From assembly GCA_002705565.1 (NCBI GenBank), contig PAHJ01000154.1:12516-55244 (forward strand): a stretch of 42,729 bases of DNA. The letters run 5' to 3'. Below are positions 20,922-38,358 of this stretch, piece by piece; position 1 is the stretch's first letter; each line of letters starts with the position of its first letter. Both the position numbers and the translations under genes were made by a program. Source of the stretch: Geminicoccus sp. Lineage in GTDB: Bacteria; Pseudomonadota; Alphaproteobacteria; UBA7985. The notes under the pieces were generated by a model. That model was not told where the DNA came from and did not search any database. It worked only from the letters and a program-made list of their open reading frames with translations.

Positions 20922-20944
20922 TTTGAATGCTCGCCCCTTGCGAT
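20922..20944 (+). terminator. Possible terminator after rpmE
   Basis: A 9-bp stem (GCGGGCATT at 20922-20930 with AATGCTCGC at 20936-20944, one G-T pair) encloses a TTTTG loop, 33 bases after the rpmE stop. It lacks a good T-run, so termination may be weak or factor-dependent. Confidence 0.5.
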
Positions 20945-21018
20945 CCAAATTAGCGCTCCTTACTTCCTATAGTGTCAGCGAGACAGCCGCTCAAACTGAG
21001 GGCTTCAGGCGCTGGCGC

Positions 21019-21083
21019 AGACCGTCACACGTGTGAGGTCTGAACTATAGAACCTTGCTTTTGCTTAAGGAGGCTACCCTATG
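21019..21083 (+). promoter_or_regulatory. ROSE-like RNA thermometer in the hsp20 leader
   Basis: Two hairpins precede hsp20. The first pairs AGACC-G-TCAC (21019-21028) with GTGAGGTCT (21033-21041) around ACGT, with G21024 bulged; its core TCACACGTGTGA is a perfect palindrome. The second pairs CCTT-G-CTT (21053-21060) with AAGGAGG (21067-21073) around a TTGCTT loop, leaving G21057 bulged. It can extend through TAG/CTA (21048-21050, 21074-21076) past a 2-nt bulge. It thus buries the whole ribosome-binding site opposite a TTGCT motif with a bulged G, the signature of ROSE elements that control alphaproteobacterial small heat-shock genes. Melting at high temperature would free the site. The transcript start is not known. 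Confidence 0.8.
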
Positions 21084-21593
21084 CGTACTTTGGATCTTTC
21101 CCCGCTTTTCCGTTCTACCGTTGGTTTCGACCGGATGACCACGCTGCTGGAAACGGCATCGCGAATGGACGCGAACGCGGCGAACAGCTACCCCCCTTAC
21201 AACATTGAGCGGCAGTCCGAAGACCAGTACCGGATTTCCATGGCTGTGGCCGGCTTCACCCTGGATGATCTTGAGATCGAAGTTCAGGACCAAGCGGTGA
21301 CCGTGCGCGGTCGGCAGGCTGAGGCCGCTCCGTCGAACGACGAAGACACCACGTATCTGCACCGCGGCATTGCCGCCAGGGCCTTTGAGCGACGCTTCCA
21401 CTTGGCCGATCATATCCGGGTGGCAGGCGCCAAGCTTGAACACGGCCTTTTGCACGTCGAGCTGGTGCGTGAAGTCCCGGAGGCATTGCGGCCTCGAATG
21501 ATTGAGATTGCTACGACCGCTGAGACGAACGGCGGCGCGAAGGTGATAGAGGGCGAAACAGCCAACCCCGACGTCGCGACAAAAGCGGCCTAG
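21081..21593 (+). CDS. Small heat-shock protein, Hsp20/alpha-crystallin family
   Basis: An ATP-independent holdase that binds unfolding proteins during stress (IbpA type). The 170-residue protein begins MRTLDLSPLFRSTVGFDR, as in alphaproteobacterial class A Hsp20, with PPYNIERQSEDQYRISMAVAGF leading into the alpha-crystallin domain (about 35-130). It contains LDDLEIEVQDQAVTVRGRQ, YLHRGIAARAFERRFHLAD and the AKLEHGLLHVEL strand. The C-terminal tail carries the I-x-I/V-like segment around RMIEIATT. The strong AAGGAGG site eight bases before the ATG is sequestered in a ROSE-like hairpin. A good terminator follows, so the gene is probably monocistronic. Confidence 0.95.
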   Translation: MRTLDLSPLFRSTVGFDRMTTLLETASRMDANAANSYPPYNIERQSEDQYRISMAVAGFTLDDLEIEVQDQAVTVRGRQAEAAPSNDEDTTYLHRGIAARAFERRFHLADHIRVAGAKLEHGLLHVELVREVPEALRPRMIEIATTAETNGGAKVIEGETANPDVATKAA

Positions 21594-21634: not shown

Positions 21635-21664
21635 GCCGGGTCGTCATGGCGACCCGGCTTTGTT
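21635..21664 (+). terminator. Intrinsic terminator after hsp20
   Basis: A perfect 9-bp GC-rich stem GCCGGGTCG/CGACCCGGC (21635-21643, 21650-21658) with a 6-nt loop is followed by TTTGTT, 42 bases after the hsp20 stop. An ATG at 21665 directly touches it, which argues against that ATG being the next gene's start. Confidence 0.8.
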
Positions 21665-37473: not shown

Positions 37474-38358
37474 GTGACAGCTTTTGACGACAGTGAAACA
37501 CGGCGGGCGAATATTGCGTTCATCAAGCGGTCGATGGAGACGCCGCTACTCAGCCGAGAGCATGAGTATGCTTTGGCTCGCGCCTGGCGGAACGATAACA
37601 ACGATCGTGCCCTCCACGAGTTGATCAATGCCTATAACCGTCTGGTGGTTTCCACAGCAGGCCGCTTCAGAAACTACGGCTTGCCGATGGGCGATCTTAT
37701 TCAAGAAGGTGTTGTCGGCCTCCTCCATGCCGCCAACCGCTTCGAACCCGACCGCGACGTGCGGTTCTCAACCTACGCCTCCTGGTGGATTCGGTCGGCT
37801 ATGCAGGACTTCATCCTGCGTAACTGGTCGATTGTTCGGACCGGGACAACCGCGTCTCAAAAGTCCCTCTTCTTCAACCTGCGGCGCTTGCGTTCGAAGA
37901 TTGAGGAAAAGACGGGTGAGCAACTCAACCAAGATGGCCGTGAGGAAATTGCAGAAACCTTGGGCGTCCCGCTGCGGGATGTTGAGGCCATGGAGGGGCG
38001 TCTGTCTGGGGCTGATGGTTCACTGAATGCCGTTGTGGGCGAAGATGGTGATCAGGAATGGCAGAACATGCTGTCTGACGAACGTCCCACGCCAGAAGAT
38101 AACACCATCTTGGATCACGACAGTCTGGTGCGCCGAGACTGGTTGGAAGAAGCGCTGGACAACCTGGGTGAGCGTGAAGCCAAAATCATCCGGATGCGCC
38201 GTCTGACCGAAGATGGTGTCACTCTCGAAGAGCTGGGAAAATACTTTGGTGTTTCCAAGGAGCGGGTACGCCAATTGGAGCACCGCGCCATGAACAAGCT
38301 AAAGACCTTCATGATGGATCGCGTTGGGCAAGCGGACGACCTCTACCTCGAAGGTTAG
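37474..38358 (+). CDS. rpoH: RNA polymerase sigma factor RpoH (sigma-32 family)
   Basis: An alternative sigma factor for heat-shock or related stress genes. The 294-residue protein has region 2 (RLVVSTAGRFRNYGLPMGDLIQEGVVGLL, then RFSTYASWWIRSAMQDFILRNW), the RpoH box QKSLFFNLRRLRSK (about 129-142), and region 4.2 with LEELGKYFGVSKERVRQLEHRAM (about 250-272). It starts at a GTG at 37474 with AGAGGGA upstream. In sequence it resembles the RpoHII-type paralogues of alphaproteobacteria more than the classic RpoH, an impression only. The hsp20 and S4/Hsp15 genes in this window are plausible targets. Confidence 0.93.
   Translation: MTAFDDSETRRANIAFIKRSMETPLLSREHEYALARAWRNDNNDRALHELINAYNRLVVSTAGRFRNYGLPMGDLIQEGVVGLLHAANRFEPDRDVRFSTYASWWIRSAMQDFILRNWSIVRTGTTASQKSLFFNLRRLRSKIEEKTGEQLNQDGREEIAETLGVPLRDVEAMEGRLSGADGSLNAVVGEDGDQEWQNMLSDERPTPEDNTILDHDSLVRRDWLEEALDNLGEREAKIIRMRRLTEDGVTLEELGKYFGVSKERVRQLEHRAMNKLKTFMMDRVGQADDLYLEG

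Follow-up and report, generated by a model that had tools for sequence, protein, structure and literature searches.

Known ROSE elements and the hsp20 locus

RNA thermometers of the ROSE type are defined by the motif U(U/C)GCU, which contains a bulged G and lies opposite the Shine-Dalgarno sequence (SD) (PMC3669281, PMC11342760). Besides this motif with its bulged G opposite the SD, their features include an IbpA-type gene and a leader of two to four hairpins (PMC3669281, PMC11342760, PMC4166951). What the upstream hairpins contribute is not fully understood (PMC3669281).

In the 42,729-nucleotide stretch of Geminicoccus sp. DNA that was analysed here (the window), the leader of an hsp20 gene is very probably a ROSE-type RNA thermometer with three hairpins (P0, P1 and P2), of which P2 would act as a zipper over the SD. 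A ROSE-like thermometer of hsp20 had been named in the original prediction, and this reading is supported by the gene, the motif, the multi-hairpin leader, covariation and the recovery of the Escherichia coli ibpA leader by the covariance model R1.

The hsp20 gene (21081..21593, + strand) encodes an IbpA-type small heat-shock protein of 170 aa (PF00011, E 1.4e-17). Its best NCBIfam model is IbpA (NF008013) with 150 bits, which is under the model cut-off of 212. As is typical of ROSE, the element thus lies in the 5' leader of a gene that both PF00011 and NCBIfam IbpA assign to the small heat-shock proteins (Hsp20/IbpA). The gene is separated by 192 nt from rpmE (ribosomal protein L31, 20661-20888), and the ROSE-type element forms the 3' end of this gap. 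The closest named relatives of the window are marine metagenome assemblies, for example Rhodospirillaceae bacterium MED834. An hsp20 paralog in the same genome (L111) overlaps its preceding gene and has no ROSE-type leader.

A candidate RpoH-type heat-shock promoter is located at 20937..20969 (+ strand). It consists of CTTG (20937-20940), 18 nt and CTTACTT (20959-20965), and this block is kept in 5/5 genomes of the genus. The block presumably resembles the alphaproteobacterial RpoH consensus, and it may serve as the heat-shock promoter of hsp20. A sigma-70-like site was sought upstream of hsp20 and none was found. On the 3' side of the gene, a terminator-like hairpin (GCCGGGTCGTCATGGCGACCCGGC followed by TTTG; 21635..21658, + strand) is a weak candidate, with one such hairpin found against a chance expectation of 0.9.

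Structure of the leader

Hairpin P2 (21053..21073, + strand) pairs CCUU[G21057]CUU with AAGGAGG and can be read directly from the sequence. Its 5' strand, CCTTGCTT, occupies 21053-21060, and the hsp20 ATG follows at 21081. The SD AAGGAGG (21067..21073, + strand; likewise a direct reading) is wholly covered through the pairs C53-G73, C54-G72, U55-A71, U56.G70, C58-G69, U59-A68 and U60-A67, with G57 bulged. The motif UUGCU (21055-21059) is thereby placed opposite AGGA (21068-21071), with G21057 as the bulged base. Across both strands of the window, UYGCU..AGGAGG..ATG occurs at one site with two overlapping starts (21055 and 21061), compared to 0.07 expected from shuffles.

The original prediction had paired CCUUGCUU (21053-21060) with the SD AAGGAGG (21067-21073), and these coordinates are exact. 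The same can be said of its seven pairs including one G.U, and of G21057 bulged within UUGCU, all of which are seen in the direct reading. It had also proposed a duplicate TTGCTT in the loop as an alternative pairing; this has to be abandoned, as UUGCUU (21061-21066) abuts the SD, leaves no loop and cannot pair.

Two further hairpins with a single bulged G on the 5' side lie upstream. P1 (21018..21042, + strand) reads CAGACC[G21024]UCAC(ACGU)GUGA/GGUCUG and P0 (20985..21004, + strand) reads AGCC[G20989]CUC(AAACU)GAG/GGCU. Both are supported by covariation within the genus. In P1, 4/10 pairs changed on both sides among five congeners, while the helix stayed 100% paired and the bulged G invariant. 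In P0, two-sided changes were found in 2/7 pairs (A-U to G-C and C-G to U-A), again with all pairs kept and the bulged G invariant. P0 and P1 together therefore account for 6 pairs with two-sided changes within the genus. For the three helices P0-P2, 100% of the cells were paired in the genus, in comparison to 35-57% in slid controls.

P1 had already been noticed as a second, upstream hairpin with a bulged G (21019-21041), and its covariation in the genus confirms it at 21018-21042. The idea of a multi-hairpin leader holds as well. However, two hairpins do not complete it: the third, P0 (20985-21004), had been missed and shows compensatory changes. With P0, P1 and P2, the leader falls within the two to four hairpins of ROSE elements, and the SD is located in the 3'-most of them.

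P2 itself is invariant in 5/5 congeners, and this zero variation within the genus counts against the ROSE reading. Its register consequently has no local covariation, and support for P2 has to come from the class.

Conservation among hsp20 leaders

About 100 orthologs of hsp20 were compared, drawn from the alpha, beta and gamma classes of Proteobacteria. UYGCU..AGGA was found before 82/91 hsp20 orthologs with an SD, but before just 2/64 other SD-bearing genes of the same loci. In 71 distinct leaders, the pairs that directly flank UYGCU:AGGA are formed in 96, 93 and 77% (the last AGGA of AGGAGGA being taken as the register). The maxima in 5000 shuffles were 90, 83 and 70%, and sliding the register by one base gave 10-23%. 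The flanking pairs are CAUR..UAUG in most relatives and CC..GG in the genus of the window, so that the two C-G pairs of the window are the compensated form. On 11 relatives, 10/17 pairs showed two-sided changes (0/500 shuffles). Covariation is thus found for the ROSE helices as a whole, with the support for P2 coming from the class and that for P0 and P1 from the genus.

Many hsp20 leaders of Brevundimonas/Caulobacterales (L094-L100) carry CCTGCTTCGGGGGC in place of UYGCU..AGGA. This sequence may be a variant in which the motif is shifted.

The 5'-side bulge of the upstream hairpins was also compared across the classes. Beside P2, a hairpin with a single 5'-side bulge is present in 51/73 non-redundant leaders, compared to 14.3 +- 3.0 in shuffles, whereas the mirrored control with a 3'-side bulge stayed at chance level (15 of the 73 leaders). 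The bulged base is G in 44/51 of these P2-adjacent hairpins and in about 27% in shuffles. Farther upstream, in the place of P0, 5'-bulged hairpins were found in 44/74 leaders (14.9 +- 3.1 in shuffles), 37 of them with G. On the sequences compared, the single 5'-side bulged G turns out to be a conserved feature, common to the upstream ROSE hairpins of three classes (alpha, beta and gamma). In Rfam, the consensus lines of both RF00435 and RF01832 show such a 5'-side bulge. While the bulge is recorded in these lines, no comment on it was found in the literature searched.

The ROSE motif is also present before betaproteobacterial hsp20 genes (Undibacterium, Oxalobacteraceae, Burkholderiales; L070, L073-L077, L079-L083). 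The same leaders contain a near-invariant hairpin, GCAGAT[G]CTC..GAG/GTCTGC. The element is therefore not confined to the alpha and gamma classes.

Rfam models and the covariance model R1

The original prediction had expected a ROSE covariance model to score the leader. Contrary to this expectation, none of the Rfam ROSE models (RF00435, RF01832 and RF02523) matched the window, neither at the gathering score nor at E<=10. RF00435 does match relatives exactly at this place with 26-46 bits (cut-off 45, one of them above it), and its matches cover just 8/289 alphaproteobacterial genomes.

The covariance model R1 was built from a seed of 11 relatives, from which the window and its genus were left out. 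The seed was limited to leaders aligned in register, as MAFFT misaligned P1 in some relatives. R1 matches 78/289 alphaproteobacterial genomes, and 73/83 of its matches precede hsp20. It recovers the ibpA leader of E. coli as well, with 23.1 bits (E 0.0012), the same leader that is recognised as Rfam ROSE_2 at 100 bits. In the window, the best place for R1 is 21018-21076, but with 10 bits and an E of 0.43. Because of this low score, membership of the window element rests on genus covariation and context and not on the score. Judged by its sequence, the element is a divergent ROSE member. That Rfam misses it reflects the narrowness of the ROSE models, and the coverage of the family in Rfam is narrow. 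The window adds one more ROSE-type leader, from a marine lineage outside Rfam coverage. The comparison yields more than the window itself, given the difference in reach between R1 and the Rfam ROSE models among the 289 genomes.

ROSE-type elements before rpoH

In one alphaproteobacterial order (that of G210), R1 matches were found in 20/43 genomes, all of them directly before rpoH. These leaders combine a bulged-G hairpin with UYGCU/AGGA (for example L128:1501-1553, - strand; also L223-L241). In a second order (that of G053), the element lies before rpoH in 13/30 examined loci. Some are placed directly before the gene (L202, L203, L211 and L222); in others, a short reading frame intervenes and the element lies about 150 nt upstream of rpoH (L207, L212, L214, L215, L217-L219 and L221). 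In some of L217, L219, L221, L212, L214 and L207, the putative thermometer opens onto this short frame, of which ATGAGACGAATTTGTCACCTCAGTCCCGAATAG is an example, and rpoH begins about 150 nt later. The short frame between element and rpoH suggests control through a leader peptide.

In a limited literature search, no description of a ROSE element before rpoH turned up. An element in this position would place the master regulator under a thermometer, in lineages for which none was found described. The window also contains a second RpoH-like sigma factor gene (37534-38316, + strand), the product of which is 40% identical to the RpoH of L128. A ROSE-type leader is absent both before this gene and before the main rpoH of the genome (L267).

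Alternative explanations of the leader

The leader could instead be mainly a protein-binding operator. In this case, the heat-shock protein itself, bound to the bulged-G hairpins, would repress its own translation until aggregates draw it off, and melting would be secondary. This explanation is considered unlikely, even though several observations point toward it. The two upstream hairpins with a 5'-bulged G occur far above chance in the alpha, beta and gamma classes, and the function of the upstream ROSE hairpins is described as incompletely understood (PMC3669281). In E. coli, IbpA uses R93 with Y34 to bind its leader, the residue at 34 having to be aromatic, and thereby represses its own translation (PMC10474464). 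The window protein has R and Y at these positions; among the orthologs, R is found in 99/100 and an aromatic residue in 100/100. It was further shown that E. coli IbpA represses rpoH translation too (PMC10981312), and a ROSE element also stands before rpoH in the two alphaproteobacterial orders described above. On the other hand, hairpin II by itself suffices for thermoregulation in Pseudomonas (PMC3669281), and no IbpA binding site has been mapped to a bulged G in the accessible literature. The conservation of R93 may have other reasons. Moreover, nearly all genomes with the rpoH element have hsp20, so that presence and absence do not discriminate. An operator would also be compatible with a thermometer rather than exclusive of it.

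The two functions could likewise be combined, although such a proposal is speculative and rather doubtful. ROSE leaders would then contain two sensors: P2, which melts on heating, and the bulged-G hairpins, to which the small heat-shock protein or some other factor would bind as a reporter of aggregates. The module would have moved to rpoH in some Alphaproteobacteria. If true, chaperone and heat-shock sigma factor would both be under the control of a single RNA element.

The second alternative is a thermometer of the fourU type or of another register, with U59-U62 paired to the SD instead of UUGCU. Apart from the ROSE register, the SD can be covered by CCUU/AAGG plus GC/GC or by GCUUUU/GGAGGC. 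Nearest-neighbour energies do not distinguish the ROSE register: at 37 C, the three SD-covering registers of P2 differ by no more than about 1.3 kcal/mol, the ROSE register being at -3.3 compared to -4.0 and -4.6 kcal/mol for the others. For the isolated hairpin, GCUUUU/GGAGGC has the lowest energy up to 45 C; it also appears in the folded leader, with its four uridines at 21059-21062. However, the register that is conserved across relatives has UYGCU opposite AGGA. In the congeners L004 and L005, UUUU is changed to UUAA and this pairing is broken, whereas neither UUGCU nor the SD nor any other part of P2 varies. With UUAA in both congeners, the four uridines opposite the SD are not conserved, the fourU pairing was rejected, and a thermometer of this kind is very improbable.

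A pairing extension that covers the AUG in the folded leader was rejected as well, as it is not kept in L004/L005. The whole leader is modestly more stable than its shuffles (z -1.6). Between 20 and 60 C, ViennaRNA predicted a very small opening of the SD, little by 50 C, although the E. coli ibpA control was mispredicted too (flat at about 5%).

That the hairpin is a fixed, non-thermosensing structure with no other effect than reduced hsp20 translation, or that it resembles ROSE by chance, is hardly credible. The Rfam models fail to recognise the leader, but the motif is conserved before genes of a single family in all three classes (controls at 3%), and the leader helices covary.

Proposed mechanism and comparison with known systems

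For the ROSE-type thermometer, we infer melting, translational control and the use of the promoter by analogy with the described elements. The hsp20 mRNA would start near 20970, and all three hairpins would form in its leader of about 110 nt. P0 and P1 would serve as stable supports and P2 as the zipper, in which UUGCU with its bulged G is weakly paired to the AGGA of the SD and flanked by two C-G pairs. At growth temperature, P2 would cover the SD and block the ribosome. The G.U pair and the bulged G would keep P2 weak. Upon heating, P2 would gradually open and allow the translation of hsp20, on top of the induction by the heat-shock sigma factor.

Compared to the known systems, the window shares with the fourU thermometers (PMC4166951) a zipper opposite AGGA, and four U happen to occur in it. 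In contrast to these thermometers, conservation within the genus does not extend to its four U.

In the rhizobial-type ROSE (RF00435), a small heat-shock gene is likewise preceded by a hairpin with UYGCU opposite AGGA. The first hairpin of its consensus is also 5'-bulged, cCgGcc[G]CC(uuau)GG/ggCcGg. However, its second consensus hairpin is bulge-free, its lower stem is longer (CAUR/UAUG), and the model scores nothing on the window.

The E. coli ibpA leader (ROSE_2, RF01832) also belongs to an IbpA-type gene, and its UCGCU with a bulged G lies opposite AGGA. Its hairpins GACCU[G]UCCA(UUG)UGGA/AGGUC and AGGACGC[G]CC(UGAU)GG/GUGUUCU have a 5'-side bulged G, like P1 and P0. The Rfam model detects no similarity to it in the sequence of the window, and the flanking pairs of P2 differ, being CC/GG in the window.

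The short ROSE-like element of Pseudomonas ibpA resembles the window in its U(U/C)GCU, its stable GC-rich upstream hairpin and its short, G-C-clamped P2 (PMC3669281). This element comprises two hairpins in about 61 nt (PMC3669281), whereas the leader in the window would contain three hairpins in about 110 nt.
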